Origin: Rivularia sp. MS3
Lineage (GTDB): Bacteria; Cyanobacteriota; Cyanobacteriia; Cyanobacteriales; Nostocaceae
Direction: 5' to 3'
Assembly: GCA_019192545.1 (NCBI GenBank)
Contig: JAHCMI010000088.1
Location: forward strand, 1-32,976
DNA length: 32,976 nt
The stretch's first letter is position 1. Each line of letters starts with the position of its first letter. The position numbers and the translations under genes are program-made. Below, piece after piece: positions 1,949-17,263 of this stretch. A model generated the notes under the pieces. That model was not told where the DNA came from, searched no databases, and worked only from the letters and a program-made list of their open reading frames with translations.

Positions 1949-3847
1949 ATGTGCGGAATCGTTGGTTATATCGGTACGCAGGTGGCGACGGAGGTTTTAC
2001 TCTCGGGTTTGGAAAAGTTAGAATATCGGGGCTATGATTCTGCTGGAATCGCGACGATATCTGAAGGTGAAGTAAGTACTGTTCGGGCAAAAGGTAAGTT
2101 ACATAATTTACGTTCTAAGTTAGAGCAGTTGGAAAATCCGGCGCGTGTTGGTATCGGACATACCAGATGGGCAACGCATGGTAAGCCGGAAGAATACAAC
2201 GCTCATCCCCATATGGATACTGCTATGCGGGTAGCGGTAGTCATGAATGGTATTGTTGAAAATTACCGCGAGCTACGGGAAGAATTAAAAGCTCAAGGGC
2301 ATGAGTTTCGTTCGGATACCGATACTGAAGTTATTCCTCATTTAATCGCTCAATTTCTTAAGGAAGAAGTGGCTCTCGGGGAAACTTATCCGGATTTGAT
2401 GTTTTATGAAGCAGTACGCAAAGCTGTCAATCAGTTAACTGGTGCATTTGCTGTTGCTGTTATTTGTGCTGATTTCTCTGACGAAATTATCTTGGTACGC
2501 CAGCAAGCACCTTTGGTTATTGGTTTTGGGCAAGGTGAATTTTTCTGCGCTTCGGATACTCCGGCGATTATTTCTCATACCCGTGCGGTGCTAAATCTCG
2601 ATAACGGGGAAATGGCACGTTTAACGCCTTTGGGTGTAGAAGTTTATAACTTCGCTGGGGAAAGATTGAAGAAGCAGCCCAGATTGCTCAACATGAATCC
2701 CGTCATGGTGGAAAAGCAGGGATTCAAGCACTTTATGCTCAAGGAAATCTACGAGCAACCAGGTGTGGTAAGAGCTTGTTTGGATGCTTATTTCAGCCAT
2801 CAAGATACTTTAGACTATACAAATTCTCCCGTAAATTTAGGCTTACCAGAAGAACTTTATACAGATTTAGAACAAATACAGATAGTTGCCTGCGGTACTA
2901 GCTGGCACGCGGCATTAGTCGGAAAATATTTATTAGAACAATTTGCGGGAATTCCCACTCAGGTGCATTATGCTTCAGAATTCCGCTATTCTCCAACGCC
3001 TTTAACCCCCAATACATTGATAATTGGCGTAACTCAATCCGGTGAAACTGCCGATACTTTAGCAGCTTTATCGATGGAGAAACAACGACGAGAAGCCAAA
3101 GAAGCGAAATTTCAACCCAGACTTTTAGGTATAACAAATCGTCCCGAAAGCAGTTTGGGATTGATGGTTCCCCATATCATTAATACCCTTGCCGGAATTG
3201 AAATTGGTGTAGCGGCAACAAAAACATTTACGGCTCAGTTGATGGCGTTTTATGCATTAGCTTTAGACTTAGCTTATCGCTGTAAAACCGTTCCTAGCGA
3301 AAGAATAGTCGAGATGATTGCCGGATTGCGAATGATTCCCAAAGAAATTGAAGAAACTCTTAAAAAACAAGAACAATTAACCGAACAGTTAGCTCACGAC
3401 TTCACCGAAACCAGAGACTTTATATTTTTAGGAAGAGGAATTAACTTCCCCATCGCTTTAGAAGGCGCTTTAAAATTAAAAGAAATTAGCTATATTCACG
3501 CCGAAGGATATCCCGCCGGAGAAATGAAACATGGCCCCATCGCCCTTTTAGATGAGAAAGTTCCAGTTGTCGCGATCGCCATGCCGGGAAGCGTACATGA
3601 AAAAGTGATTTCCAACGCTCAGGAAGCCAAAGCCCGCGATTCTAGATTAATTGGAATTGCACCTGCCGACGATGGAGAAGTAGCAGAAGTATTCAACGAT
3701 TTAATTCCGGTGACAACCGTTGATGAATTGCTTTCACCAATTTTGACGGTGGTACCTTTACAATTGTTGGCTTATCACATCGCTGCTCGTCGTGGTTTGG
3801 ATGTGGATCAGCCGAGGAATTTGGCTAAATCTGTTACTGTTGAATAA
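1949..3847 (+). CDS. glmS: Glucosamine-6-phosphate synthase (glutamine-hydrolysing)
   Basis: A 632-residue enzyme making glucosamine-6-phosphate from fructose-6-phosphate and glutamine, the first committed step to UDP-N-acetylglucosamine for peptidoglycan and lipopolysaccharide. Residues 2-220 form the class II glutamine amidotransferase domain; Cys2 of MCGIVGYIG becomes the N-terminal nucleophile after Met removal. Two SIS sugar-isomerase domains follow, with CGTSWHAA and TQSGETADT in the first and ALEGALKLKEISY in the second. The C-terminus DVDQPRNLAKSVTVE matches the conserved end of the family. The DNA encoding it is the known binding site of Tn7 TnsD, and a Tn7-like end starts 25 bp after the stop. 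The start is fixed by the catalytic Cys and a GGAG site. Confidence 0.98.
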   Translation: MCGIVGYIGTQVATEVLLSGLEKLEYRGYDSAGIATISEGEVSTVRAKGKLHNLRSKLEQLENPARVGIGHTRWATHGKPEEYNAHPHMDTAMRVAVVMNGIVENYRELREELKAQGHEFRSDTDTEVIPHLIAQFLKEEVALGETYPDLMFYEAVRKAVNQLTGAFAVAVICADFSDEIILVRQQAPLVIGFGQGEFFCASDTPAIISHTRAVLNLDNGEMARLTPLGVEVYNFAGERLKKQPRLLNMNPVMVEKQGFKHFMLKEIYEQPGVVRACLDAYFSHQDTLDYTNSPVNLGLPEELYTDLEQIQIVACGTSWHAALVGKYLLEQFAGIPTQVHYASEFRYSPTPLTPNTLIIGVTQSGETADTLAALSMEKQRREAKEAKFQPRLLGITNRPESSLGLMVPHIINTLAGIEIGVAATKTFTAQLMAFYALALDLAYRCKTVPSERIVEMIAGLRMIPKEIEETLKKQEQLTEQLAHDFTETRDFIFLGRGINFPIALEGALKLKEISYIHAEGYPAGEMKHGPIALLDEKVPVVAIAMPGSVHEKVISNAQEAKARDSRLIGIAPADDGEVAEVFNDLIPVTTVDELLSPILTVVPLQLLAYHIAARRGLDVDQPRNLAKSVTVE

Positions 3848-3872
3848 GTGTAATTACTGAAATGATTAAATT
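3806..3872 (+). other. attTn7-type homing site at the 3' end of glmS
   Basis: Bases 3806-3844 encode the last 13 residues of GlmS (DQPRNLAKSVTVE), the segment Tn7 TnsD reads, and 3848-3872 are the 25 bp between the stop codon and the TGT of the putative transposon end. In Tn7 the insertion point is also about 25 bp past the glmS stop. The five bases before the end are AAATT. They are not repeated after the left end at 14870, so the target duplication is not preserved. Confidence 0.7.
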
Positions 3873-3901
3873 TGTCGAAAGATAACACAGTTGTACAAAT
3901 T
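3873..3901 (+). repeat. Putative right end R1 of the Tn7-like element, one repeat unit left
   Basis: TGTCGAAAG (3873-3881) is followed by the single unit ATAACACAGTTGTACAAATT (3882-3901). Compared with the left-end terminus (TGTGGACGT then ACAATAAAGTTGTACAATTT), 21 of 29 positions match without gaps. The second right end at 14877 has the same 9 + 20 arrangement but with three units, so R1 looks like a version that lost exactly two units (40 bp). Confidence 0.68.
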
Positions 3902-3942
3902 CTCCTATAGGTAACTACTATATCACCTGTAGGGGATTTTAT
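3901..3942 (+). terminator. Hairpin terminator just inside the glmS-proximal transposon end
   Basis: TCTCCTATAGGT (3901-3912) pairs with ACCTGTAGGGGA (3925-3936) to form 12 base pairs including two G-T wobbles, followed by TTTTATTTT. It lies 53 bp after glmS and before the convergent gene ending at 3971, so it probably ends the glmS transcript. A near copy occupies the same place inside the second right end (14945-14984). Confidence 0.75.
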
Positions 3943-3970
3943 TTTCTTCAATCATATATTTGATTAAAGT

Positions 3971-6900
3971 CTATTCTTGCTCAAATTCTTGAGATTTAAA
4001 TTTCAAGACTTTACAGTTTTCCGTGACAGTACGAATTACATTTTCTGGTATACCATCGGGAACGTTGACATGAAGTTCGAGGGAAATTTCAACTTCCGAG
4101 CCTACCAAACTGGTAAAGTGTTGAACTACCTCATCTGCTATTTGTCCTACATCGCGTTGTAATCGTAATGAATCTACTTTAACGGTGCCGTAAAAGCGCT
4201 TGGGGGGAGTTGTTTTAGTAGCTTGAATATTGCCACCGTTTGGTTTTTTTATATCATCTATACTACTAGTATTTCCGGTGTTCCTTGGATTTTGTATTTC
4301 GTAATCTCCAGTTTCCTCAGCAGCTTGAGATGATGGAGTTTTAGCTTTAGCTGCTGCTTCTACATCTGCTGTTAATTGACGTTGTGCAACTTCTGGTTTG
4401 ATTATCAAGCTTTGAGTACTCAGAGTTACATTAATATGTTCTGCTGTTTTTAAGTTAAGATAGCGTCCTCTGGCTTCATCCCAACCATCTGCGTAAGCAA
4501 AGTTGTCTTCTAATAGTAAGTTTGCAACACCTTCTTCCACTGCTTTTAAAAGTACTTTTTCGTTTTTAAGACGCGGTAAATAAAGATAGTTAGCTAAATA
4601 TTCCCACAGTTTTTTCAGGTCGAGATGGTTTACGTTACTCCAAAGATAGGTATCAAGTGCTTCTAAACGCAAACGAACGGCAGAATATTGAGTAATTAAA
4701 TGTTCCTCATGAATAGCTTTGCGACTTGCTTGTAATATAGGCGAATCATGCTTTTGTAAGCGAATATCCAGCCATTCAACTATATCGTGGGGGTCTGGTT
4801 GTTCTGGTACTAATAACCAAATGTAGGTTTCCTGAATTAAATTTTTAACGTCTTTATCGGTTTGTTGCTGTTTGGTTGTTGCTTGTTTGCTTTGAAATAC
4901 GTCTAAATTTAATGATTCTTTTTCTTGCAGAATCGAGTTCCAGGCTAAGTACTGACAAATATTTCGTTCCAATAATTCTAATTTTGTTTGGTCTGGTGCA
5001 AGGAACAATAACATATTTCTGCAATAGCGAGGACTTGCACCTTTGTTATTTAGTATTTCCTCTGCTTGAGATATTGCTTTAGTATTATTTTGTTTTGCTT
5101 TATGAGAATGTTCTGGTCTGAGAACAACTAATCTCACCGATGCTTCATCGGGAATATCTGCTGTGGAACTGGGAGCAATATGTACGCTAGTAAATTCGCC
5201 ACGTTGTTTATCAGTTCTCAATCTGCGAATAATTTCTTCCCAGACTTTATCGTTATCTTGCTGAATTTGTTCTGCGCGTTCTTGGGCTAATCGAGTTACG
5301 CTTGGTTGGGTTGAGAACCAATAGCGGGTATTGTCGATATAAAGGTGTGTGGCTTGGTCAGTGAGACGACGGAGAGCATCGCCAAATGTGGAAGCTCTTT
5401 CTCCCGGCTGGACGCAACCTAGTTTGATACGAAGGTCTTCTAAACCGCGATTGGTAGCCCGGAAGGTAGGGGCTGAACCAAGGTATATTGTACGAGCAAC
5501 GCGACGACAAGCTGAATAACGTCCGAGATTTGGGTTGTTTCTGTCGCACGCTAAAGGTAGTGAATTTACTCCGTCCACGTCTTTTTCAATTACGGGAACC
5601 CAGTTGTCTTCCAAGTAGCGAGTTAATTCTTCTCGCACTCTTCCGTCGTCTATTGATATACTCGCAGGCATAATTAATAAGCTTTTATCTTGCGCTTCCC
5701 ATAAAGAATGTATGACTTTTGCCATTAACCGCAATACACCCCGCGTGCGCTGGAATTTATCTAAGGTTGACCAGTCTTCGTAAAGTCGGTCAAATAGTTC
5801 GGGATGAATGGGATATGCTGCTTCTAAACGTCGTTTGTAACTTGCTTCCCGACATTCAGAAGGAAATTCCTGGGGTTGGGTTTGATACATTTGTCCGAAA
5901 CCTTGGACTACAGCATCGCGAGCAACGAAGTCACTTTTTTCGGTGATGGGTTGAAATAAGCGTCGTCGCACGATTTCAAAGCTTTCTTCTGCATTCGCAG
6001 GTCGCCAAGGAGATTCTACACGACCGATAGCATTTTTTAACCTGCTGAGTGCTTCTTTACCCCTTTCTCCACCGATTTCATTATCGGAAGCGGGGATACT
6101 AACTACTAAAAATGTTTGATTGGCATTTTTGGCAGATTCGCTTAAAGTTTGAGCAAAGGTAAAATGAGTATCGAAGCTGCCACCTGGTAAATCGTTTTTA
6201 TCATGTAGCTGACGAGCATAAGCTACCCATTCATCAATAAGAATTAAGCATGGTGCGTAGCGATTGAATAGTAAACGTAAAGTATCGCCGGGATTGGTAG
6301 AAGTTTCATCAGTTTCCCGAACCATTTCATAAGCTTCTCTTCCACCCAATTGCCAAGCAAGTTCTCCCCACAAAGTACGAACAACAGTCCCATCGCTTTT
6401 ACGTTGCGGTTGACCGGGAGAAATTTTATTACCTACCAATACTGCTGTATTTACTGTTGTAGGTGGTTCAACTTTGGCATCTTCTAATACTGGCTCTAAT
6501 CCGGGTAATTCCGAAACGGGAACACCCATAAACAAATGGTACAGCGCCAGCATCGCGTGGGTTTTACCACCACCAAAATTAGTTTGTAGTTCAATTACAG
6601 GGTCGCCACTATCACCAGAAAGACGACGTAAAGCATTTGTTAAAAGTAATTTTAATCCTTCTGTAAGGTATGTACGACTAAAAAATTCTGTAGGAATCCG
6701 ATATTCGTCAGAACCTTCATTTAAATAAACTTGCCAGAGGTCGGCAGCAAATTCCGCTTCTTGATAGCGACCGCTAGCGATATCGGGATGAGGTGTGACA
6801 ATTTCTCGCCAAGGCTTTAAACCTCCTGTAGGAGTACCTTCTAGGGGCTGATTTGCTACGCGGCGACTTTCTCGACGGGCTTGTTCTGCATAGCGAACGC

Positions 6901-7321
6901 GCAATAGTTCTTGCTTTTGCTTTTCGACTTCATCCGCTTGTGAAGCACAAATTGAATTTAGTAACCGCGCAATACTATCAAGAGCGCGATGAGTATCATC
7001 GGTAGAGAATGGCTCGTTATGCGCCCAGGAATTTCGTGTAAATTTTAATTCCCCGACAAGATTTTTTTCAAAGTTACCTAAAGTATTTTTGAATACGTCA
7101 CGCCACATACACCAAACAACGTGGAGTAGTTGACCAACATCTTGTTTAAGAGTTTGTTCGGTTTTGCGGCGTAGGGTACGGTCTTCTGAAACATAAGGTG
7201 CAGCAGCAAGTACCCATCTATCGCCATGAATATCGCGCAATTCTCTTTCTACAAAAGGATACAAGCCATCTTTTAAAAGGTCTAAGGCTCGACCTACTCG
7301 TTCGCGGTTACTAAGTGCCAT
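3971..7321 (-). CDS. DUF499-family ATPase with N-terminal Swt1/HEPN-like region (anti-phage cluster)
   Basis: An 1116-residue protein of the DUF499 ATPase family, which accompanies DUF1156 methyltransferases and a helicase in defence islands. The N-terminal 120 residues look like the Swt1-type HEPN region and contain RNSWAH (about residues 95-100), which fits the R-x4-6-H pattern of HEPN ribonucleases. A P-loop FGGGKTH lies near residue 250 and a Walker B LILIDEW near residue 360. The C-terminus (about 1040-1116) is a small separate domain after a serine- and threonine-rich linker. It is the last gene of the leftward group: helicase, methyltransferase remnant, DUF559, then this. The DUF559 stop lies 74 bp upstream, across a palindromic repeat. 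The frame is intact. The role in nucleic-acid recognition or RNA cleavage is inferred from family, not shown. Confidence 0.85.
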   Translation of the reverse strand: MALSNRERVGRALDLLKDGLYPFVERELRDIHGDRWVLAAAPYVSEDRTLRRKTEQTLKQDVGQLLHVVWCMWRDVFKNTLGNFEKNLVGELKFTRNSWAHNEPFSTDDTHRALDSIARLLNSICASQADEVEKQKQELLRVRYAEQARRESRRVANQPLEGTPTGGLKPWREIVTPHPDIASGRYQEAEFAADLWQVYLNEGSDEYRIPTEFFSRTYLTEGLKLLLTNALRRLSGDSGDPVIELQTNFGGGKTHAMLALYHLFMGVPVSELPGLEPVLEDAKVEPPTTVNTAVLVGNKISPGQPQRKSDGTVVRTLWGELAWQLGGREAYEMVRETDETSTNPGDTLRLLFNRYAPCLILIDEWVAYARQLHDKNDLPGGSFDTHFTFAQTLSESAKNANQTFLVVSIPASDNEIGGERGKEALSRLKNAIGRVESPWRPANAEESFEIVRRRLFQPITEKSDFVARDAVVQGFGQMYQTQPQEFPSECREASYKRRLEAAYPIHPELFDRLYEDWSTLDKFQRTRGVLRLMAKVIHSLWEAQDKSLLIMPASISIDDGRVREELTRYLEDNWVPVIEKDVDGVNSLPLACDRNNPNLGRYSACRRVARTIYLGSAPTFRATNRGLEDLRIKLGCVQPGERASTFGDALRRLTDQATHLYIDNTRYWFSTQPSVTRLAQERAEQIQQDNDKVWEEIIRRLRTDKQRGEFTSVHIAPSSTADIPDEASVRLVVLRPEHSHKAKQNNTKAISQAEEILNNKGASPRYCRNMLLFLAPDQTKLELLERNICQYLAWNSILQEKESLNLDVFQSKQATTKQQQTDKDVKNLIQETYIWLLVPEQPDPHDIVEWLDIRLQKHDSPILQASRKAIHEEHLITQYSAVRLRLEALDTYLWSNVNHLDLKKLWEYLANYLYLPRLKNEKVLLKAVEEGVANLLLEDNFAYADGWDEARGRYLNLKTAEHINVTLSTQSLIIKPEVAQRQLTADVEAAAKAKTPSSQAAEETGDYEIQNPRNTGNTSSIDDIKKPNGGNIQATKTTPPKRFYGTVKVDSLRLQRDVGQIADEVVQHFTSLVGSEVEISLELHVNVPDGIPENVIRTVTENCKVLKFKSQEFEQE

Positions 7322-7348
7322 AGTTTTTTATAGTGGTTATATAATTTG

Positions 7349-7389
7349 CCCCTCACTCCTGCCCCTCTCCCAAGGCTTTGGGAGAGGGG
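7349..7389. repeat. GC-rich palindromic repeat between DUF559 and DUF499 genes
   Basis: CCCTCACTCCTG leads into the palindrome CCCCTCTCCCAA-GGC-TTTGGGAGAGGGG (7362-7389). This is the same unit that sits inside the neighbouring genes. Here it lies in the 74-bp spacer just upstream of the DUF499 start, where its stem could affect co-transcription or the mRNA leader. Confidence 0.85.
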
Positions 7390-7395
7390 TAAGTA

Positions 7396-8034
7396 TTACT
7401 TTGCTTGTTTTTCGCCTTCTCCCAAGGTTTCGGTACGGGGGTGTTCGTTATTCTTTATTTCTTGCTCCCCTTCTCCCAAATTGGGAGAAGGGGTTGGGGG
7501 ATGAGGGGAGAAAGCTTGACGAATAACTTCCAACGCAGCAGGTAAATTAGTTTCCACTAATTCACTACTAATACGTACAAACCGCAATCCCAATGATTCA
7601 AGTAACTGCTGACGCTGTTGGTCTAAATCCTTTTGAGATTCGTGGATTTTTCCATCAACTTCTACAATTAAGCGTTCGGAACCACAAAAGAAGTCAACAA
7701 TAAAGTTTCCTATTGGTTGCTGACGACGAAATTTGCGACCTTCTAGTTGACGATTTCGCAGAGCTTGCCAGAGAATGGCTTCGCTCGGTGTCGGATTTTT
7801 GCGAAATTGACGGGCGATTTCTATCATTCGTTTACGGAGAGCAGGGGGAATGTGCCATTTGTCTTTGACCTTTTTACCCTCACCCCCAGCCCCTCTCCCA
7901 AAGCTTTGGGAGAGGGGAGTTTGTTTAGAAGGAGTTTGTTTTTCTACTCGATTTTCTCCATATTCTGTCCCCCCTCTCCCAACCTGGGAGAGGGGGCTAG
8001 GGGGTGAGGGTTGCGAGTGCTTATTGATTTCCAT
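7396..8034 (-). CDS. DUF559 (Vsr/PD-(D/E)xK-like) endonuclease with repeat-encoded ends
   Basis: A 212-residue protein whose core, about residues 55-170, is a DUF559 domain, related in fold to the very short patch repair endonuclease. It starts PPALRKRMIEIARQFRKNP, then has a TPSEAILWQALRN-type helix and the catalytic-like strands NFIVDFFC and LIVEVDG. These families cut DNA, often at mismatches or modified sites, but this member's target is unknown. The first 50 or so residues (HSQPSPPSPLSQVGRGG ... FGRGAGGEG) and the last 35 (HPPTPSPNLGEGEQEIKNN) are translations of the palindromic repeats, so both ends have been remodelled. The ATG lies three bases after the stop of the methyltransferase remnant, which indicates co-transcription. 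The original protein was probably only the core. Confidence 0.8.
   Translation of the reverse strand: MEINKHSQPSPPSPLSQVGRGGTEYGENRVEKQTPSKQTPLSQSFGRGAGGEGKKVKDKWHIPPALRKRMIEIARQFRKNPTPSEAILWQALRNRQLEGRKFRRQQPIGNFIVDFFCGSERLIVEVDGKIHESQKDLDQQRQQLLESLGLRFVRISSELVETNLPAALEVIRQAFSPHPPTPSPNLGEGEQEIKNNEHPRTETLGEGEKQAK
7414..7508. repeat. Palindromic repeat within the 3' end of the DUF559 gene
   Basis: This contains the palindrome CCCCTTCTCCCAA/TTGGGAGAAGGGG with TTGGGGGATGAGGGG on one side and a TTCTTTATTTCTTGCTC stretch on the other. The last roughly 65 bases are nearly identical to 11645-11709 inside the helicase gene, including the non-palindromic part. The two sites therefore share a longer unit than the common palindrome. 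Confidence 0.85.
7876..8010. repeat. Two palindromic repeat copies within the 5' end of the DUF559 gene
   Basis: One copy (7876-7917) has the palindrome CCCCTCTCCCAAAGC/TTTGGGAGAGGGG. The second (7969-8010) reads CCCCCCTCTCCCAACCTGGG followed by AGAGGGGGCTAGGGGGTGAGGG. They are separated by about 50 bases. Both are read through in frame and encode most of the first 50 residues of the DUF559 protein. Confidence 0.85.
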
Positions 8035-8037
8035 AAA

Positions 8038-8715
8038 TTAAAACAACGCTACCTGTACTGGTGTTTCTTCGTGACTATCCGCAGCAAGACGAGAAATTTC
8101 TGACCAGGACATAACTAAGCTGTTGTAAGCTACACCTTCAGATGACCAGCCTTTGCGATCGCAAATGTTATATAGTCGATAGGCTAATTCTCTGGCTGCT
8201 TCTCCTATGGTTCCCAGTTGAGATAGCAAACGTGCTGCACTGGTTTCTCCCGCACCGTCTTGTAATTCCCGAATCATGTATTGTGTTGCTTCCCAAACGG
8301 TGAGACGTTTATCGGTTTGGGGATTCCAATTTTCGAGTAATTCGTCACGACGTAGAAGTCGGACTTTACCAGCTTTAGCAACGAGGACACCAGCATCTAC
8401 TAAGCCTTGTACCGATGTGTTTTTGGCTTTAGAAAGAGTTTCTGCTTCACCGAATAAACTTTCATTAAAAGCATATTGTTTAAACCAGATTAAAGCAAAC
8501 CGGGTTTCTGCATCAAATTCACCTTCCTCTTCGGCGAGGTAATCATCTAAAGTGAGATTGATTAGCTGTAGCGCTGTGCGAACCGACATTCGCGTACCGT
8601 CGGATTCTAAGACTTTACTATAGCGCGAGTATATCGCCATACCCGGACCAATGCTAGCTTGTGCTAAGTCAACTGGTGCGATGTTGCCTTGTTGGAGCTT
8701 TTGTAGTGCGTCTGG
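8038..8715 (-). pseudogene. C-terminal remnant of a DUF1156 adenine DNA methyltransferase
   Basis: An open frame of 225 codons, without a start at its upstream edge, matches the C-terminal part of DUF1156 anti-phage methyltransferases: LQQGNIAPVDLAQASIGPGM, then SRYSKVLESDG, AKNTSVQGLVDAGVLVAKAG, RLTVWEATQYMI and AYRLYNICDRKGW. The match continues 25 codons upstream of the first ATG (8638-8640), to a stop at 8716-8718. Full-length family members are about 900-1000 residues and carry the catalytic motif far upstream; none of that is present in the next 600 bp. A 200-residue protein could still be made from the ATG at 8640, but it would lack the methyltransferase domain. The break lies at about 8718. 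The upstream bases carry GAGGTAGCAACTATGATG, which may be the original start region joined by a deletion; this is uncertain. Confidence 0.8.
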
Positions 8716-9328
8716 TCATACATCATAGTTGCTACCTCGTTATTTCAGCCATTGAAGCGGTTACTTAGTTAAAATTAGGCACTATAAAATTAGCCCGTGA
8801 CTACGGACGTAAAAATAAAAAGCATTTATTTATGCTTCAATAGATGCACCTCAGAGTTTCTAAGTAAAAGCTCTGGCTAAATAATAAAAGAGGTAATTTT
8901 TTTATAAGTATTTCTCAGTAATGTTAGCTCATTTAATGCCATTGTCAACATACTGAATTTCCTTTTATCAAGGAGAATTTTTCCCTGACTTGCTTATTTT
9001 TTCTAAAGTATTGTTGGGGTAAGGTTTAAACCTGATTACCGATATATGTAACAAAAAGTTAAGTTAAACAGCTTCGACTTTTTAAAATATCATGAAAATT
9101 TATGATTGGTAAGCGACGCTATAAGTTAGCCTTGTTTTTGCTCGTAAGATTATTTGAAAGCCTCTCACACCCTACATTTAATATTCATCCTTACTGTTTT
9201 GTTTTATAGTCTTTATGCGATTACTATGAGTTTAATTCGCTCAAGCAATTCGTCATCATAATTCCTGTAAACTATAACTAATCTAAACTAATAACAGCAA
9301 ATAATGGTTATTAATAATAGGTAATATT
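8716..9328. other. AT-rich gap at the methyltransferase breakpoint
   Basis: These 613 bp separate the truncated methyltransferase from the oppositely oriented DUF1016 gene. All frames are broken by stops, and I see no methyltransferase motifs, tRNA or transposase. The sequence is AT-rich and probably holds the promoter of the DUF1016 gene. Confidence 0.5.
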
Positions 9329-10513
9329 GTGAATTACGAAGAACTGATTCATGATATCAGTAATATTAACAACACATCTCTTACTACTGTTACACGGGCT
9401 GTAAACAAAATTTTAACTATCCGTAACTGGTTTATTGGTGCGTACATTGTTGAGTACGAACAAAACGGAGTTGACAGAGCAGCCTACGGTACGCAGTTAA
9501 TTAAAAAGCTTGCTAATGACTTAAAAAGTAGAAAGATAGAGAGTTTATCTGACCGCAACTTGAAAAATTTTCGACAATTTGCGTTGACTTATCCTGCTTT
9601 AGCAAAAGATGAAAATATAACTGCATTTTTATCATTAATTAGTATACCATTTAACGCGCTACAAATTCGGCAGACAGTGGCTGCCGAATTTAAAACCGCA
9701 CCTCAAAACTTATTTCCAGCCCTGCAAGCTCGTGAATTAGAAAACCCTTCATTAAGTTGGCAAGATAGCAATTATTATCAACGTTTGGTTTCTACTATTT
9801 CATGGTCACATTTAGTAGAATTAACTCGTATAGAAGATACTACTAAAAGAGCTTTTTATGAATTAGAATGTATGAAAAGCAACTGGTCTAAAAGAGAGTT
9901 AAAACGGCAAATTAACAGTATGCTTTACGAAAGAGTCGGGTTATCTAAAGATAAAGAAGCTGTTTTAAAGCTTGCAAATGAAGGACAAATTATAGAAAGC
10001 CCTAAAAACGTTTTACGCGACCCTTATATTTTAGAATTTTTAGAATTAGAAGAAAAAGCTGCTTATTCAGAATCCGATTTAGAATCAGCTTTAATTAATC
10101 ATTTGCAAGAATTTATGCATGAATTAGGTCGAGATTTTTGTTTTGTTGACCGTCAATTTAGAATTACGGTTGCAGAAGAACATTATTTCCTAGATTTATT
10201 ATTTTACCATCGTTCTTTACAGTGTTTAATTGCTATTGATTTAAAACTAGGGAAGTTTAAACATGATTATGCGGGACAAATGAATTTTTATCTTAACTAT
10301 TTGAAGGAAAATATAGCTTATCCTCACGAAAATGCTCCGGTGGGAATTCTTCTTTGTGCTGAAAAAGATGCGGAAGCAGTTCACTATGCAACCGCAGGAC
10401 TTGATAATCAATTATTTGTCTCGCGGTACATGGTAGCGCTTCCTTCAGAAGAAATTCTTAAGCAATGGTTAATTGAAGAACAAGTTAGGCTTGAAAAACA
10501 ATTTTATTTATGA
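9329..10513 (+). CDS. DUF1016 (YhcG-type) PD-(D/E)xK nuclease
   Basis: A 394-residue member of the YhcG/DUF1016 family. The N-terminal half has the family opening, with ITNRxW-like sequence ILTIRNWFIGAYIVEYEQNG and the LSDRNLKNFRQF segment, likely DNA binding. The C-terminal half is the nuclease: YFLDLLFYHR followed by LIAIDLKLGKFKHDYAGQM gives the spaced D and D-x-K of the PD-(D/E)xK core. These proteins are common in defence and restriction islands; their targets are mostly unknown. The start is GTG with a weak AGG upstream. It is the only plus-strand gene in the island, placed where the methyltransferase N-terminus would be, and it converges on the helicase with a 34-bp gap. The frame and active site look intact. 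Confidence 0.85.
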   Translation: MNYEELIHDISNINNTSLTTVTRAVNKILTIRNWFIGAYIVEYEQNGVDRAAYGTQLIKKLANDLKSRKIESLSDRNLKNFRQFALTYPALAKDENITAFLSLISIPFNALQIRQTVAAEFKTAPQNLFPALQARELENPSLSWQDSNYYQRLVSTISWSHLVELTRIEDTTKRAFYELECMKSNWSKRELKRQINSMLYERVGLSKDKEAVLKLANEGQIIESPKNVLRDPYILEFLELEEKAAYSESDLESALINHLQEFMHELGRDFCFVDRQFRITVAEEHYFLDLLFYHRSLQCLIAIDLKLGKFKHDYAGQMNFYLNYLKENIAYPHENAPVGILLCAEKDAEAVHYATAGLDNQLFVSRYMVALPSEEILKQWLIEEQVRLEKQFYL

Positions 10514-10547
10514 TTCAAGATTAGTTCATTTATACAGTATTGAAAAA

Positions 10548-13500
10548 TCAAATCGGCTCAGTTCCGCGCTGCCACAATTCCTGTAAATTATAATTAACGC
10601 TGGTTGCAGCAAAATCGGGTTCTTGTTGAAATGGCTTGTGTATATAGCGAATTTGACAATTATCTGTAGATGATTCGGTTGAAGGTACTTGTACAATTGC
10701 CAAAATAAAATTATCGGGTTTATTAAGTGCGGCAATGATTTCGTTTTTGGTAACAGTTACGGTTTTTGCTCCTGCAATACGTCCTTTGACTTCGATAAAC
10801 CGCAATAATCCCTCACCCCCTTCCCCTCTCCCAAAATGGGAGAGGGGTGCTTGATAAAGCGGGGTGAGGGTACTAGACTCGATATCATAACCGCATTTTT
10901 CGCTACTTACATCTCGCGGTTCGTAACCCAATTTCCGTTCGGCTTCAATTACCGCAGCCATTGCTAATTTTTCTATTCTCTCCCGCGAAATTGCGATATT
11001 TTCTACATTCATATTTTGTACCGAATCTTTCCCCAATAACCGATTTAACAAACCGATGGGTACAATCAACGCACCACCGAAAATTACTGGTGGTAACGGG
11101 GATAATTTACGTTCTTGTTCGAGTTCACTTAACCGTTGCTGCAATCGCGCTTGTAATTCATCCGCACGCTGACGGGCTTTTTCGGAATTGATTTTAGCGT
11201 TTGCTTTACCTGCTAATTCTTGTGTCTTAAGTTCGCTAGCACGGTAATCCCAGTAATTGATTTCTTTGGTTAATCGGTCTTTAACCGCTATCATTGTTTT
11301 GATAGTAAGTTCTTCTTTACGTTGTTTAATTTCTTGAAGATGCTGGGGAACTAAGTTTTTAATCGCATAAGTTTTGGCTTGTGTTTCTAAGTCATTGTGT
11401 TGCCAAGATTTTTCTAAGATTGTTTCCACAACTGATTTTTCGTCATCCTTCAAAGGACGATAATCAAGATATGGTGCGTAGCCAGCATTCCTTGCCCTCA
11501 CCCCCGTCCCCTCTCCCAAAGCTTTGGGAGAGGGGTGTCCGTTAGGACGGGGTGAGGGTTGCTCCCCTTCTTTCAATATAGGAGAGGGGTGTCCGTTAGG
11601 ACGGGGTGAGGATTGCTCCCCTTCTTTCAATATAGGAAAGGGGTGTCCATTGTTCTTTATTTCTTGCTCCCCTTCTCCCAAATTGGGAGAAGGGGCTGGG
11701 GGATGAGGGAAAATTTCTACATACTGCATCCGCTTAGAAACAACCCTTCGAGAACCATTGTTATTTATCCGCGCATCTTGTATTGAATGCTCCAAATAAA
11801 CTAATGCTCGAACATTTTCGTAATGGTCATTTTCATCGACTAAAATAGTACCCTGCTTCAAAAAATTGCGATCGCGTTCTAAAGTTAAGTCAATTGTGGC
11901 ATCAAGTAACGGATGTCCCGGACAAACAAATGATGCAGGTGGTTTTCCTGGAACATTTATCAAATCCTTGTCAAAGCAAATCCTTTCGTAACGTCGCAAC
12001 AAGGGCTGACTTTTTCCAATTAACCTATCTCGATTGCGGACAGTTGCTGGTACATGAGTAATTTCATAACGTTGATGTTCGCGCTGACGGATACTTCCAC
12101 CCAACTTTTGAAAAGCCTCTAAAAAGAAAGCAGCGATAAAATGCGGTTGTAAACGTCGTGCTTGAGCGCGTTCCATTTCGGCACGGATTTCCTGTACTTT
12201 GGCGAAATCCATCGCATCTCGCGCTAATGCACGCTCTTCCAAGAGTTCGCGTAATTTATCTTGGTCTAACTTGCGTAAAACTTGATTCAATCTTGCCCTT
12301 ACTTCTGATGTATCTCCATAACGAATTGCATCGATGAGCAATCCCCGTAATTCCTTTCCCGCAATAGCTGTTCCTAAAACATCAAATACCTTACCACCCA
12401 AAGCTTGCTGTTCGATTTCCAACTTTTTCAATAGCGCTAGATAAACTTCCCCTTCGCGGGTTTCTTCAGCAACCAAATTCCATAAGTGACAAACTTCCGT
12501 CTGTCCAATGCGGTGAATGCGTCCAAACCTTTGTTCAAGCCGATTTGGGTTCCAAGGTAAATCGTAATTTACCATTAAATGAGCGCGTTGCAAGTTAATA
12601 CCTTCACCCGCCGCATCGGTGGCAATTAATACCTGTACATCCACATCTTGAGTAAATGCTTCTTGGGCTTTGCGTCGTTCCTCTCGTCCCATTCCACCGT
12701 GAATTGTGACCACAGCTTCTGCTCGTCCCAATAAAGTACTAATCCGTGCGGTTAGGTAATTTAAAGTATCGCGGTGTTCGGTAAAAATTAGCAGCTTGCG
12801 CCGATGTCCGGCAGCATTAAACATCTCTACATTGTCCTGTAGCAGCTTTGATAACTCCTCCCATTTTTTATCCGTACCACTACGACGTACTTTCAAAGCT
12901 AATTCTTCTAATTCCTTTAGCAGCGAAATCTCAACTTGTAACTCTGCAATCGTTCTTGATGCGGTTGCTAAATCAACAACTTCCTGCTCCATATTTTCTC
13001 TTTCTGCGGCAGAAACATCATCAAAATCGTCTTCAATATCTTCGACATTAACGACTTTGTTTAACTCAAAATCTACAAAAGTTCCTCGCTTAAATATTTC
13101 TTCTTCCCGTAAACGTTTCTCCAGACGTTCCCGACGACGTTTTAATGATTGATAAATAGCTTCTGGAGAAGAAGCCAAACGACGCTGGAGTATTGTCAAA
13201 GCAAAGCCAACAGTACCTTTACGTCCTTGATTTCCTAAAGCATCAGCACGATTAAATTCTTCGCGTACATAATTCGTGGCTTTTTTATAAAGCGATGCTT
13301 CTAAATCCGAAAGCTGATATTTAACTGTATATGCTTTTCTTTCCGGAAAAAGAGGCTTACCATTGAATTTGAGCAAATCTTCCTTAACCAAACGTCGCAT
13401 CAAATCCGAAGTATCTACAACATGAACCCCATCACGAAATTTTCCCTCGAACCTATCACCATCAAGCAACGCCATAAACAACTGGAAATCTTCTTCCTTT

Positions 13501-14318
13501 CCATTATGTGGCGTTGCTGACATTAATAAAAAATGCCGCGTTAAACTTGATAGTAACTTGCCCAGTTTATAACGCTTCGTCTCCTTAATTTCACCACCAA
13601 AAAACGAAGCCGACATTTTATGAGCTTCATCGCAAATAATTAAATCCCAATCCGTCTGCGATAACTTTGCTTGTAAATTCTGATTGCGACTGAGCTTATC
13701 AAGCCGAACAATCGCCAAAGACATCTCCGCAAATGCATTTCCCGTGCGTGCAGCTTCTATACGGTCATTAGTGATAATCTCAAATGGTAAATTAAATTTT
13801 TTCCCCAACTCATCCTGCCACTGAGCTTCCAAACTACCGGGACAAACCACCAAACAGCGATGTAAATCCCCACGTATCAACAACTCACGTATCAGCAAAC
13901 CAGCCATAATCGTTTTCCCCGCACCTGGATCGTCAGCTAAAAGAAAGCGGAGAGGTTGACGTGTCAGCATTTCACTGTACACTGCGGTAATTTGATGGGG
14001 TAATGGTTCAACCAGCGAAGTATGAACCGCCAACAAAGGGTCAAATAAATGTGCGAGTCGAATACGCAAAGCTTCAGATACAAGACGAAATTTAGCACCA
14101 TCAGCATTAAAACTCCAAGCACCTCCTTGAGTCACGACTTCTAAAGTGCTTTCCTTATCCCGAAATAGCAACTCATTTCCCAGAGTTCCATTAGTTTCTT
14201 TATAGGTTAATTCGACAACATCGGAACCGTGCCACTGTACATCGACAACAGTAACAATACTGTTAGGTAAAATACCTTGAACCTGGGTGCCTTTTGTTAG
14301 CTGTTCGAGTTTCGCCAT
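10548..14318 (-). CDS. SNF2-type helicase with C-terminal DUF3883 domain, interrupted in frame by repeats
   Basis: A superfamily 2 helicase of about 1256 residues. It has Walker A DDPGAGKT near residue 130, the DEAH box near 230, and motif VI QRFGRIHRIGQ near 600. The DUF3883 domain is near residues 1100-1235 (ERKLGYEPRDVS ... RFIEVKGR), a nuclease-like fold often attached to such helicases. It is the helicase partner of DUF1156/DUF499 clusters. I chose ATG at 14318 (MAKLEQLTKGTQVQGILP) because the family starts about there; the frame extends upstream to a TTG at 14366. Two repeat insertions are translated in frame: one of about 72 residues near 870-941 in the linker before the coiled-coil region, and one of about 20 residues inside DUF3883, between CGYDIES and RFIEVKG. 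Function may be kept, but the second lies close to the predicted active centre. Confidence 0.88.
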   Translation of the reverse strand: MAKLEQLTKGTQVQGILPNSIVTVVDVQWHGSDVVELTYKETNGTLGNELLFRDKESTLEVVTQGGAWSFNADGAKFRLVSEALRIRLAHLFDPLLAVHTSLVEPLPHQITAVYSEMLTRQPLRFLLADDPGAGKTIMAGLLIRELLIRGDLHRCLVVCPGSLEAQWQDELGKKFNLPFEIITNDRIEAARTGNAFAEMSLAIVRLDKLSRNQNLQAKLSQTDWDLIICDEAHKMSASFFGGEIKETKRYKLGKLLSSLTRHFLLMSATPHNGKEEDFQLFMALLDGDRFEGKFRDGVHVVDTSDLMRRLVKEDLLKFNGKPLFPERKAYTVKYQLSDLEASLYKKATNYVREEFNRADALGNQGRKGTVGFALTILQRRLASSPEAIYQSLKRRRERLEKRLREEEIFKRGTFVDFELNKVVNVEDIEDDFDDVSAAERENMEQEVVDLATASRTIAELQVEISLLKELEELALKVRRSGTDKKWEELSKLLQDNVEMFNAAGHRRKLLIFTEHRDTLNYLTARISTLLGRAEAVVTIHGGMGREERRKAQEAFTQDVDVQVLIATDAAGEGINLQRAHLMVNYDLPWNPNRLEQRFGRIHRIGQTEVCHLWNLVAEETREGEVYLALLKKLEIEQQALGGKVFDVLGTAIAGKELRGLLIDAIRYGDTSEVRARLNQVLRKLDQDKLRELLEERALARDAMDFAKVQEIRAEMERAQARRLQPHFIAAFFLEAFQKLGGSIRQREHQRYEITHVPATVRNRDRLIGKSQPLLRRYERICFDKDLINVPGKPPASFVCPGHPLLDATIDLTLERDRNFLKQGTILVDENDHYENVRALVYLEHSIQDARINNNGSRRVVSKRMQYVEIFPHPPAPSPNLGEGEQEIKNNGHPFPILKEGEQSSPRPNGHPSPILKEGEQPSPRPNGHPSPKALGEGTGVRARNAGYAPYLDYRPLKDDEKSVVETILEKSWQHNDLETQAKTYAIKNLVPQHLQEIKQRKEELTIKTMIAVKDRLTKEINYWDYRASELKTQELAGKANAKINSEKARQRADELQARLQQRLSELEQERKLSPLPPVIFGGALIVPIGLLNRLLGKDSVQNMNVENIAISRERIEKLAMAAVIEAERKLGYEPRDVSSEKCGYDIESSTLTPLYQAPLSHFGRGEGGEGLLRFIEVKGRIAGAKTVTVTKNEIIAALNKPDNFILAIVQVPSTESSTDNCQIRYIHKPFQQEPDFAATSVNYNLQELWQRGTEPI
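10810..10870. repeat. Palindromic repeat inside the DUF3883 domain of the helicase
   Basis: CCCTCACCCCCTTCCCCTCT leads into CTCCCAAAATGGGAG, and the copy closes with GGGGTGAGGG. It is translated as LTPLYQAPLSHFGRGEGGEG between the strands GYDIES and RFIEVKGR. In relatives these two strands are joined by a short turn, so the insert lengthens a beta hairpin. Confidence 0.85.
11494..11709. repeat. Compound palindromic repeat array inside the helicase gene
   Basis: Four related units in about 216 bp. One perfect palindrome (CCCAAAGCTTTGGG core) comes first. Two near-identical units follow, containing GGGGTGTCCGTTAGGACGGG and CTCCCCTTCTTTCAATATAG. A last unit has the CTCCCAAATTGGGAG core, shared at length with 7444-7508. 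The array keeps the reading frame and encodes GHPSPILKEGEQPSPRPN twice. Confidence 0.88.
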
Positions 14319-14728
14319 ATCCGGGTGTTTTACTTGGTAGTGCTGATTGATACGTTGTTTTATCAAAAATAAACGTCATCTCAAAGCAGCTTTTGTAAGA
14401 TTTATGATACCGATTTATTTCCGTTATATGTGTATAACATTCAACATTTACGACACTTAGACAGCAATCTTAAGTGACGGCGATTACCTAACGGTAGAGC
14501 TTCGCTTAACGCAACGTCTAAAAATCATCAATCAATTTAGTATCCTTTGCCACTACTAAGTAATTAATTTGACAAATTAAAATACTATTCGCTTTCTAAA
14601 TACTTGTTAATAAACCTACATTTGCTAAGTGATATGACTAAAATGAAAGCTAGAAGAAAACCAATATAAAAATCGAGAGATTTGTTCTTTTTGCAGTGCT
14701 TCAAACCCTTGTATAGCAAGCATTAGGC
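14319..14728. other. Gene-free interval between helicase start and left transposon end
   Basis: This should contain the promoter of the leftward defence group, but no boxes could be assigned. A cyanobacterial repeat-like stretch (GCGATTACCTAACGGTAGAG, then CTTCGCTTAACGC) occurs near 14480-14515. The rest is AT-rich with no open frame of note. Confidence 0.45.
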
Positions 14729-14870
14729 AAATTGTACAACTTTATTGTTCAATTTTTGAGAATAGAGTCGGGCAAATTGTACAACTTTATTTTTTCGATT
14801 ACCCGTCATTTGCAACGAAAAAATAGGTATTTCAGGCTTTTAAATTGTACAACTTTATTGTACGTCCACA
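14729..14870 (-). repeat. Tn7-like left end L1: terminus plus three spaced 20-bp repeats
   Basis: Read on the minus strand from 14870: TGTGGACGT (14870-14862), then ACAATAAAGTTGTACAATTT (14861-14842). A copy differing at one or two bases follows at 14793-14774, and an exact copy at 14748-14729. The first 20 bases, TGTGGACGTACAATAAAGTT, agree at 17 positions with the Tn7 right-end terminus as I remember it (TGTGGGCGGACAATAAAGTC). Three binding sites spread over about 140 bp is the known layout of the Tn7 left end, where TnsB binds. Confidence 0.78.
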
Positions 14871-14876
14871 TACTTC

Positions 14877-14945
14877 TGTCCAAAAATAATAAAGTCGTAC
14901 AGTAAACAATAGAATTGTACAACACATAATATAGTTATACAAATT
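14877..14945 (+). mobile_element. Right end R2 of a second, tandem Tn7-like element
   Basis: TGTCCAAAA (14877-14885) is followed by three abutting 20-mers: ATAATAAAGTCGTACAGTAA, ACAATAGAATTGTACAACAC and ATAATATAGTTATACAAATT. Abutting sites are the known layout of Tn7 right ends. It begins six bases after the left end L1 and points rightward, so a second element should extend beyond it. No matching left end was found by eye up to 32976, so the element may be truncated or longer than the window. Confidence 0.7.
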
Positions 14946-14984
14946 CTCCTATGGGTAAATTTTATTTAACCTGTGGGAGATTTT
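14945..14984 (+). terminator. Hairpin terminator just inside the second right end
   Basis: TCTCCTATGGGT (14945-14956) pairs with ACCTGTGGGAGA (14969-14980), 12 base pairs with three wobbles, followed by TTTTATTTA. It occupies the same position relative to its transposon end as the hairpin at 3901-3936, with base changes that keep the pairing. Confidence 0.7.
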
Positions 14985-15056
14985 ATTTATGATTTGAAGT
15001 AGAATCGCGCACCATCTAGAAGTTGGATTGAAAAACTGCAAAGAAAAGAGTATTTC

Positions 15057-15237
15057 GTAGGTTGGGTTAGACAGGAAAAAAATTTTGGTAAAGACAACAA
15101 TTTATTTTTATCCTATCGTAAGCCAATATTAAAATTTGAATAAATACTGTTAATCATTAAAACTCTAATGTTGGGTTACGACGCAATATTAGTTATTAGT
15201 CCAAATTCAAAATTTTCGTGCGTCTAACCCAACCTAC
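15057..15237. mobile_element. MITE-like element, copy 1
   Basis: A 181-bp element bounded by perfect 16-bp inverted termini GTAGGTTGGGTTAGAC and GTCTAACCCAACCTAC. It has no coding capacity. It is about nine-tenths identical by eye to 15940-16121 and in the same orientation. It lies just downstream of the Uma2 gene. No clear target duplication is visible. Confidence 0.75.
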
Positions 15238-15274
15238 CAACTGTATTTATCATTGTGTTTTGAAAATATAAATA

Positions 15275-15919
15275 TTAACTTTCCATTTGTTCTCTCACCC
15301 AATTCCTAAAAGCTCTAATTACAGAATTCCGACCTGCTGTTTTACTCTGTTCAAGATATTTTGGTAAAACTTCAGCTAAATCAAAATTAGGAAAGCTTTT
15401 GCTTTGCTCGGACACTACATAAGAACCATTCTGTAATAAATTTATTTGTAATTTCCCTTTCTCAAATCGCCAGAGTTCAGGGACTTTTAACGCTTCATAG
15501 ATGCTTGGATGAGTCCGGGAAGTAACATCAATTTCTAGAGCTAAATCGGGTGGTGGGTCTTGTGTTAAATCAAGCCTATTTTTACCACGCACTTTGCTTT
15601 CATTTTCAATATAAAAACATTGGTCTGGTTCAATACCTTGAAGCATGATTTGATTTTTAAAAGTCGTAGAACCAAGACTAAGAAATTCAATATCTAGCTC
15701 TTCTAAAAGTGCTTTGATTAAATCACCGATTATTTCTTTACCAAACTCATGTTCTGGCAATGGAGCCATAATTTCTAGCACCCCTCTGTCATAAGCAATA
15801 CGTGCAGCGCGATGTTCTCCGAGTTCGTCAAGAATTGTTTCAAATTCTTGCCAAGTGACATCATTTAACAATACCCGTTGTCCCGGTGGAAGATTAATAC
15901 GTCTAATGCTCAAGAGCAT
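15275..15919 (-). CDS. Uma2-family (DUF820) endonuclease-like protein
   Basis: A 214-residue Uma2 protein, a family with a PD-(D/E)xK fold that is heavily expanded in cyanobacteria and of mostly unknown function. The typical order is visible: VTWQEFETILDELGEHRAAR, then YDRGVLEIMAPLPEHE, a helix, and the active-site strand region DPPPDLALEIDVTSRTHPS, which supplies the acidic residues. The ATG at 15919 has AGGAG eight bases upstream. The gene lies between two direct copies of a MITE-like element, and the upstream copy ends only 20 bp before the start codon, so the promoter may lie in the element. Whether this gene belongs to the second Tn7-like element or to the host is open. Confidence 0.85.
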   Translation of the reverse strand: MLLSIRRINLPPGQRVLLNDVTWQEFETILDELGEHRAARIAYDRGVLEIMAPLPEHEFGKEIIGDLIKALLEELDIEFLSLGSTTFKNQIMLQGIEPDQCFYIENESKVRGKNRLDLTQDPPPDLALEIDVTSRTHPSIYEALKVPELWRFEKGKLQINLLQNGSYVVSEQSKSFPNFDLAEVLPKYLEQSKTAGRNSVIRAFRNWVREQMES

Positions 15920-15939
15920 ATTACCACTCCTATTATTTT

Positions 15940-16121
15940 GTAGGTTGGGTTAGATAGGAAAAAAATTTTGGTAAAGGCAACAATTTATTTTTATCCTATC
16001 GTAACCTAACATTAGGATTTGAATAAATACTGTTAATCATTAAAGCTCCAATGTTGAGTTACGACGTAATATTAACTATTAGGTAAAATTCAATATTTTT
16101 TGTGCGTCTAACCCAACCTAC
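15940..16121. mobile_element. MITE-like element, copy 2
   Basis: A 182-bp copy with termini GTAGGTTGGGTTAGAT and GTCTAACCCAACCTAC (15 of 16 paired), directly repeating 15057-15237. It sits immediately upstream of the Uma2 ribosome binding site. The rest of the 330-bp gap to the next gene shows nothing recognisable. Confidence 0.75.
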
Positions 16122-16249
16122 TGAATACTGACTGATAAAAAAACCTTAGAGAATGCAGAAGAAAGAAGTCAATAGAGATAGGAAATTTTAGAACGGGTGA
16201 CTAAACAGAAGCTATGTTGTTATAAAAGATAAAAATATTTACTGAGGTA

Positions 16250-16894
16250 ATGGGTGCAATGGACGAACTTATAAAAAAAATCGCCGGATTGGGATTTCCT
16301 GGAATTGTTTTAGTTATAGTTATGGCAAGTACTGGTTTAACTGGTGCTGCTGCAATTACTGCTGCTTTGGCTATATTAGGTGGCCCAGCCGGAATGCTGG
16401 GGGGAATTACAGTTTTAGGATTAACTGGATTGATTGCTGATGCTTTAACAAACGTTGGTTTAGAAGAGTTACTAACAGCGGTTTACTGTCAAAGAAGACA
16501 ATCGGAACCCCAGGGAAAATTATTAGAAGAAATTAATTCTTTATCGCTGTTTGACGGTGATTTAAAAGAAAGACTTAAAATTACGGTAACGGATGGATGT
16601 GGCTGTACAACTGTAGTCGGTAAAAATATATTAGATGACACTCAAGAAGTTATCGAAATATTAGAAAACGTTCCCGGCATGACTCGCGCTCATCATCGGG
16701 ATTTTAAAAGTTCTCATCCAGTTATTCGGTTAAGAGATGGTTCAACTGTGAAAACTTGGAAAAATCCTTTTGGGGTTGACCATGTTTTTATTGCCGATAG
16801 AAATGACAATATGGTTTACGGTGGTTTTGTCGGCTGGATTCATAGCGATGGACTGAATGCTGCTATTAATAGGATTCGACGGGATTATGTGTAA
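16250..16894 (+). CDS. Unrecognised protein with glycine-rich hydrophobic N-terminus
   Basis: A 214-residue protein that I cannot assign. Residues 12-70 are two strongly hydrophobic, glycine- and alanine-rich stretches (GFPGIVLVIVMASTGLTGAA, then ITAALAILGGPAGMLGG and VLGLTGLIADAL), likely membrane helices of the glycine-zipper kind. The remainder is a soluble domain with a GCGC motif near residue 123 and a tryptophan- and histidine-containing C-terminal part. The listed ATG is only two bases from GAGG (16244-16247). The ATG at 16259 (MDELIKK) has better spacing and may be the true start. The gene is followed after 15 bp by another unknown gene, so the two probably form an operon. A membrane-acting effector or a membrane-anchored regulator are both possible. 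Confidence 0.7.
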   Translation: MGAMDELIKKIAGLGFPGIVLVIVMASTGLTGAAAITAALAILGGPAGMLGGITVLGLTGLIADALTNVGLEELLTAVYCQRRQSEPQGKLLEEINSLSLFDGDLKERLKITVTDGCGCTTVVGKNILDDTQEVIEILENVPGMTRAHHRDFKSSHPVIRLRDGSTVKTWKNPFGVDHVFIADRNDNMVYGGFVGWIHSDGLNAAINRIRRDYV

Positions 16895-16909
16895 ATTAAT
16901 TAATTTTTT

Positions 16910-17263
16910 ATGACTGAATCAAAACCTGCTTTACCTCAACCTCAGCTACAACCTGCTGGTATTACTTTCGAGCAATACGTAGAATTTACTCCAGAGAAAT
17001 TAGAATTAAGCGACGGATACCTCGGTTATGGCGGACAAAACCAGCTTGGATTTCATTTGGCCGTGCTTACGAATATGGGTTTATTATCAGCAATTCGCCA
17101 TACAAATCTAAATTTATGGATTGAAGTTTTAGATAATTATGTACGAGAAAAGTTGGTAAATATTGATGCCGAATCCGAAGAAACTGAAGAAATGTTTTCA
17201 CGGTTAAATCGAGCAATAAATGATTTAGCGGCAGTGGTAGAATATTTGCAAGAAAAGGGATAG
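16910..17263 (+). CDS. Unrecognised small acidic protein
   Basis: A 117-residue soluble protein. The segment ITFEQYVEFTPEKLELSDGY resembles the first strand and helix of Uma2 proteins (a leucine/glutamate-rich helix followed by an aspartate-glycine turn), but no nuclease strand follows. A helix-rich C-terminus ends in AINDLAAVVEYLQEKG. It lies 15 bp after the membrane-associated unknown gene and probably shares its transcript, which may end at the hairpin 17365-17385. The pairing suggests related roles, perhaps partner or immunity protein, but nothing in the sequence proves this. Confidence 0.65.
   Translation: MTESKPALPQPQLQPAGITFEQYVEFTPEKLELSDGYLGYGGQNQLGFHLAVLTNMGLLSAIRHTNLNLWIEVLDNYVREKLVNIDAESEETEEMFSRLNRAINDLAAVVEYLQEKG

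Follow-up and report, generated by a model that had tools for sequence, protein, structure and literature searches.

Tn7-type genomic islands in which elements insert serially at one site, lose their transposition genes and keep their cargo were reportedly described by Parks and Peters in 2009 and by Peters et al. in 2014. We analysed a 32,976-nucleotide stretch from Rivularia sp. MS3 (the window). It makes up the whole of contig C161, and the 9.19-Mb genome is spread over 174 contigs. Positions 3873-14870 of the window are very probably a decayed and immobilised Tn7-like island that is homed to glmS and carries Hma-type defence genes. Tn7 itself inserts just past glmS with a packed end toward the gene and spaced sites in the far end (PMC11406308); its insertion distance and 5-bp duplication are treated in PMC2918618. 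Defence systems as cargo of Tn7-like elements are covered by Benler et al. 2021 (PMC8649781); there, boundaries were sought on contigs harbouring a Tn7-like transposon and read from arrays of ~20-bp sites, and the words 'glmS', 'DISARM' and 'Hma' are absent from the main text. Such an approach might miss an island that lacks transposase genes. The Hma defence system is described in the PADLOC paper (PMC8565338).

The island shares its place just past glmS, its orientation and the spaced sites of its far end with Tn7 and with glmS-homing Tn7-like elements including Tn7743/AvCAST (type I-B1), AvCAST being likened by description and not by sequence. Unlike these, the island contains no named tns or cas gene, TnsA, TnsB and TniQ were not found in the genome, its glmS-proximal end has one site, and there is no target duplication. 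It differs from the islands attributed to Parks and Peters in being cyanobacterial, in showing three ends, of which an older right end comes after the left end, and in a hairpin that solo right ends retain. As for Hma, HmaC and HmaA match, whereas the HmaB methyltransferase is cut to its last quarter, a YhcG-type nuclease gene lies beside the HmaB break, and a DUF559 gene sits between hmaB and hmaC.

Three transposon ends at glmS

The attachment gene glmS (1949-3847, plus strand; an ORF of 632 aa, matched in 60 of 60 genomes searched) ends with TAA at 3845-3847. Reading on along the plus strand, a 25-bp spacer (3848-3872) leads to the right end R1 (3873-3901), recognised from the sequence and with a weight matrix. 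It consists of the terminus TGTCGAAAG, with TGT at 3873-3875, and a single 20-bp TnsB-type site at 3882-3901 on the plus strand. The left end L (14598-14870, plus strand), delimited by a left-end alignment and a BLAST alignment to the genome G006, comprises three spaced 20-bp sites and subterminal DNA. The copies lie on the minus strand at 14729, 14774 and 14842 (spacing 45 and 68 bp), score 30.3, 28.3 and 30.3 bits with the matrix, i.e., near consensus, and the terminus GTCCACA has its last base at 14870. A preliminary description of this DNA had reported both termini, one with a 20-bp repeat 25 bp past the glmS stop and one with three spaced copies at 14729-14870. Coordinates and weight matrix confirm them, and the L copies match its repeat at 20, 19 and 20 of 20 positions.

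A second right end, R2 (14877-14945, plus strand), was overlooked in that description. It follows L after a 6-bp gap (14871-14876, plus strand) that holds no duplication of 3868-3872, and was identified with the weight matrix and by BLAST against G006. R2 has its TGT at 14877 and three abutting 20-bp sites at 14886, 14906 and 14926 on the plus strand; it is thus fuller than R1 (three sites versus one) but lies outside L, and we take it to be the relic of an older element. Over the 123 bp at 14879-15001, the R2 region shares 87.0% identity with the right end next to glmS in G006, the closest relative by GlmS (98%). A hairpin (fold -17.7 kcal/mol, z -4.5) and a possible relic tnsA start, aligned with the tnsA start of G006, follow R2 at 14946-15001 (plus strand).

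At an 11-bit threshold the weight matrix found seven sites in the window, each of at least 21 bits and every one within R1, L or R2. Thirty first-order Markov versions of the window gave an expectation of 0.13 sites of at least 15 bits per sequence, a chance control that is not independent, the matrix having been partly trained on these very sites. With seven sites observed against 0.13 expected, chance repeats are ruled out. A second left end to pair with R2 was not found, as there is no further site of even 11 bits in the window, whose contig ends at 32976.

Similar ends at the same spot are found on relatives that carry tns genes, which supports the earlier assignment of the island as Tn7-like and glmS-homed with its right end toward glmS. 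Elements with tns genes, for which the preliminary description had advised a search, were found in G048, G100 and G125. In G048, glmS is followed after 25 bp by a right end, and genes for TnsA, TnsB-type, TnsC-type and TniQ proteins; a lone Cas6 comes next, then a methylase and a helicase, and a left end closes the 19.3-kb element. In G048 as in the window, the insertion point lies about 25 bp beyond glmS and the right end faces the gene. G100 (25.4 kb) and G125 (16.2 kb) have glmS, tnsA, tnsB, tnsC, tniQ/tnsD and a left end. The TnsB-type protein of G048 gives only a weak Mu-transposase C-terminal match in Pfam, below the cut-off, and is 57% and 51% identical to its matches in G100 and G125. 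All three elements have three or more right-end sites, against one in R1. Their ends are not uniform: the left-end sites of G100 are spaced 66 and 66 bp and its right-end sites belong to another sequence class, and the third left-end site of G048 is degenerate. The expectation of glmS-homing Tn7-like kin was borne out. A type I-B CAST origin is not shown, no cas gene being among the five island genes scanned. The Cas6 gene of G048 (L067:6102-6698) follows tniQ, and no other cas family was found among the nine of 11 ORFs scanned.

An alignment of the left ends from 11 sequences spans 146-151 bp, and the ACA terminus is present in all 11. Across the order, a left-end profile matches 20 of 291 genomes at E values up to 1e-6; three of the 20 (G000, G034 and G048) helped build the profile, and the filters were strict, so that degenerate ends may escape. 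In the DNA examined beside the left ends of 15 of the 20 matched genomes, glmS stands on the expected side in six (G270, G125, G100, G118, G178 and G154), and contig ends limit the view in some of the other nine.

The same site can hold other cargo. In G006, glmS is followed by a right end whose terminus is altered from TGT to TAT, a frameshifted tnsA start (49 aa, 61% identical to TnsA of G048), DrmD, DrmMI in two pieces, DrmA, DrmB, DrmC, a left end and a Uma2 gene; DrmD and DrmMI are the class 1 set of DISARM. The alignment of the window with G006 over 14598-14870 (86.8%) stops at 14870, which is therefore the element border. In G012, the interval from glmS to the left end holds type I restriction genes together with a YhcG relative, and no right end could be recognised. 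Comparison of the region downstream of glmS, also proposed in the preliminary description, further revealed an uninterrupted, empty site in other cyanobacteria, e.g., G017.

Remnants of tnsA lie beside the right ends of G006, G270 (with an in-frame stop) and G010 (50 aa); a weak one occurs in G015 (22 aa, E 2e-4), and G434 is recognised by the tnsA start alone. Broken tnsA genes just inside the right ends of relatives point to decay of autonomous elements. The broken tnsA of G270 (L167:3049-3768), next to the right end of a glmS-linked island, has an in-frame TAG, and that island also holds ~10 kb of chromosomal-looking genes between tnsA and hmaC.

To see how widespread such ends are, 59 of 60 genomes could be surveyed, G045 meeting a contig end. 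Within the first 150 nt after glmS, a right-end site of at least 15 bits occurs in 15 of the 59 stretches, the window included, against a background 99.9% level of 13.1 bits from 1,696 segments of 130 nt. The TGT lies 23-25 nt after the glmS stop in 14 of these 15 genomes, and 10 of the 15 are independent of the matrix, which was trained on sites of G000, G005, G006, G014 and G032. A left end is present in six of the 59 stretches, a number that contig ends and the 20-kb limit may keep low; all six were in the training alignment, and the left ends of G270, G394, G397 and G434 are outside it. Several relatives have a right end after glmS and no left end. Repeats without transposase-linked ends, which the preliminary description had named as evidence against its reading, do occur in this form, but their position is that of the glmS insertion point, and the best reading takes them for scars left by the same elements. 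In other genera, G022 and G032, compared with G017, carry an insert of ~50 bp, 21 nt after the glmS stop, that is a bare right end with both sides colinear. In G434, the left end is directly followed by the hairpin of a right end of another class, like that of G010, so that a left end immediately before an older right end is seen in two cases, the window and G434, from two genera.

Immobility and history of the island

Searches of the 174-contig assembly did not find TniQ (the same search was positive in 31 of 60 genomes), a TnsB relative (10 of 15 positive) or a TnsA N-terminal domain (11 of 15 positive). None of tnsB, tnsC, tniQ/tnsD and tnsA is among the window proteins scanned, TnsC having had no genome-wide search. 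Since the genome lacks TnsA, TnsB and TniQ matches and R1 has one site, the island is taken to be immobile. A TnsABCD-type machinery would once have placed the element at glmS; the tns genes would then have been deleted while the Hma-type cargo stayed. R2 would be what remains of an earlier element, shifted away from glmS when a newer one landed at the same spot. In the simplest order of events, the older element left R2 and the newer, Hma-bearing one landed between glmS and R2, both would have lost their transposition genes, and the far part of the older element would have been deleted.

The distribution of Hma bears on this history. Of 217 genomes in the family, 20 have HmaA matches at E values up to 1e-250; within the genus (eight genomes) this is the only one. 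A left end adjoins hmaA in five of the 20 (G000, G270, G394, G397 and G434); in G397 both are on a 4.1-kb contig, too short to show glmS. Hma and glmS occur together in G000, G270, G377, G394 and G434. In the latter four, which represent two other genera, Hma is 0.2-11 kb from glmS, and G270, G394 and G434 have this left end. G377 repeats the layout of the window (glmS, TGT, one site, hairpin, hmaC), although its sites belong to a different class. No glmS was found within 20 kb around hmaA, mostly on the hmaC side, in G399, G453, G475, G295 (one of its two hmaA copies examined), G369, G331 and G402, and no Hma match was found in the 10-20 kb after glmS in G020, G023 and G025. TnsB-like fragments lie ~2.3 kb from hmaA in G399 (L214:252-709) and G475 (L216:674-1132), with no glmS found nearby; Hma may ride other Tn7/Mu-type elements too.

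Several observations weigh against the reading as a decayed, glmS-homed island. No 5-bp target duplication flanks R1 and L (AAATT before R1, TACTT after L), nor is a perfect one present in the seven relatives with both flanks readable (G006, G014, G032, G048, G100, G125 and G270); G377, with GATTT/GATTG, matches at four of five positions and is the only such case. R1 and L could stem from separate events: next to R1 no tnsA remnant was found, and over nt 1-100 R1 matches the solo right end of G001 at 81%, the two being equally long. The L block (86.8%) and the R2 block (87.0%) diverge from G006 like the three flank blocks (84.7-87.5%), which speaks against a single-event origin of R1 and L; L and R2 may predate the split from G006. 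Ten of the 15 Hma genomes examined (G397, G328, G364, G375 and G452 standing outside this count) have no glmS beside Hma in the DNA examined, and in G377 the ends on either side of the Hma genes are of another sequence class, so that the ends around a cargo can change.

Some of these points would also fit a different history, in which R1 would be a scar inherited from long ago. The Hma block would have come later, together with L, by recombination with another glmS-linked island, so that R1 and L would not be the two ends of one transposition event. The alignment of R1 with G001, the missing duplication, ends that may predate the split from G006, and a different defence system between like ends in G006 all favour it. 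On the other hand, single-site right ends could arise repeatedly through loss of tandem sites, one insertion before R2 plus one deletion makes a short history, and in G434 a left end likewise precedes an older right end. We consider the recombination history rather unlikely; it overlaps with the reading as a decayed Tn7-like island and would alter the history of the locus, not its kind. The preliminary description had instead suggested a non-autonomous element, in which cargo with a working Tn7-like end on each side would be mobilised in trans by the transposase of another locus. The lack of tns genes inside and the near-consensus sites of L suit this idea, and TnsA and TnsB relatives exist in the same-genus genomes G004 and G007 and partly in G001. 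It is nevertheless improbable, given the negative searches of the own genome, the single site of R1 compared with G048, G100 and G125, and the broken tnsA of G006 and G270 which, with the tnsA start in G434, points to decay of autonomous elements. Hardly credible is an origin of the repeats as ordinary features of the glmS terminator region, where a defence cluster gathered without transposition. In its favour, several relatives have right-end-like sequence after glmS and no left end, but it is contradicted by the pairs of insert and empty site (G022 and G032 versus G017), by elements with tns genes that have like ends at the same spot, and by left ends at the far border of unlike cargo.

As a decayed Tn7-like island, the locus illustrates that surveys starting from transposase genes can miss such islands and that end profiles at glmS recover them, with Hma here, DISARM in G006 and type I restriction genes in G012. 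The glmS site becomes a readable record of serial insertion and of defence genes that outlive their transposon.

The hairpin behind the right end

Directly after R1, at 3902-3945 (plus strand), lies a terminator-like hairpin with a T-rich tail (fold -17.1 kcal/mol, z -4.6). The stem was compared over 17 right ends, a chosen set outside which stand those of G007, G010, G021, G022, G025, G031, G032, G048, G056 (glmS side), G100, G118 and G377. In this alignment 93.6% of 187 cells form the 11-pair stem, with one row (G125) out of register; an earlier alignment paired 181 of 187. Changes on both sides occur at four of the 11 stem pairs, in 11 cells, compared with an average of 2.6 in shuffles, of which none of 500 reached as high. 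No slid control exceeded 55.1% paired, but a slide by -2 equals the double changes (four pairs, 12 cells), so the covariation gives moderate support. The stem is followed by a T-rich tract and then, where tnsA survives, by its ATG. By eye, no such hairpin follows the right ends of G022, G032 and G048. A terminator scan found none near R1; the scan permits loops of 3-8, and these hairpins have loops of about 11-13.

The empty site of G017 reads as a hairpin that the insertion splits, and Tn7 is said to split the glmS terminator likewise in E. coli (reported by Gay et al. in 1986). Because insertion parts glmS from its own terminator, we propose that the hairpin behind the right end stops glmS transcription in its place. 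Many right ends carry such a hairpin in front of tnsA, and it may persist after the transposon is gone, perhaps because it takes the place of the glmS terminator split by insertion; support for this is moderate. We tentatively extend this to a possible general role, in which the right end of Nostocales Tn7-like elements would be a portable glmS terminator that replaces the split one and is kept by selection after the transposon has died, so that solo right ends would keep a record of repeated visits, with defence systems (Hma, DISARM, type I restriction) being gained and lost behind them. The idea offers a way to test how an essential gene withstands transposon insertion into its terminator. 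A literature search returned no title on solo right ends of Tn7 that persist as glmS terminators; the survey of cyanobacterial Tn7-like elements by Hsieh and Peters (2023) may already report some of these findings. In G056 (L065:13500-13720 and 14848-19760), a right end with hairpin adjoins a TnsC-type gene and two TniQ-domain genes of ~640 aa, ~40 kb from glmS.

Defence cargo and neighbouring repeats

Five plausible genes lie between R1 and L, and PADLOC and Pfam scans support the earlier view of them as defence cargo without a transposase. HmaC (3971-7321, minus strand; PADLOC 1120 bits, almost the entire profile) is an ATPase with DUF499 and an N-terminal Swt1-like HEPN domain in Pfam. HmaA (10548-14366, minus strand; 1699 bits, profile positions 1-877 of 1176) is a SNF2-type helicase with a NO VEIN C-terminal domain. 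Between them are a DUF559 endonuclease-like protein (7396-8034, minus strand; Pfam), a truncated HmaB (8038-8715, minus strand) and a YhcG/DUF1016 PDDEXK nuclease gene (9329-10513, plus strand; from the ORF list, PADLOC and Pfam), which stands between the hmaB fragment and hmaA. No Cas effector, Cascade or TniQ/TnsD match was obtained with PADLOC and Pfam among these five genes; the YhcG protein matched one PADLOC model tagged CAS-associated, PD_DExK.

The HmaB fragment corresponds to the final 225 of 1002 residues. In the PADLOC comparison, 8038-8640 covers profile positions 775-958 of 967, and tblastn with the full HmaB of G270 matched, within hmaB itself, only residues 778-1002, other matches being weak, elsewhere and mostly in repeat tracts. 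The methyltransferase part has therefore been lost, and a complete set of HmaA, HmaB and HmaC is not present in the island. G270, G377 and G453 have the gene order HmaA, HmaB, DUF559, HmaC with full-length HmaB, the DUF559 match likewise lying between hmaB and hmaC.

Palindromic CCCCTCTCCCAA...TTGGGAGAGGGG repeats occur at 7345-8011, 10820-10870 and 11491-11709, within the HmaA and DUF559 frames or at their ends, where they add low-complexity protein stretches; a similar repeat breaks into the broken tnsA of G270. A megablast search of 3700-15000 against plasmids gave a single 52-bp match. Beyond R2, the Uma2 family gene (15275-15919, minus strand; Pfam PF05685) belongs to the flank common to G006, where it is 89% identical at the amino acid level. 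It is bracketed by a MITE-like pair of 166-nt repeats (15051-15216 and 15934-16099, 89% identical), and an element similar to this repeat, with GTAGGTTGGGTTAGAC ends, sits within the right end of G007.

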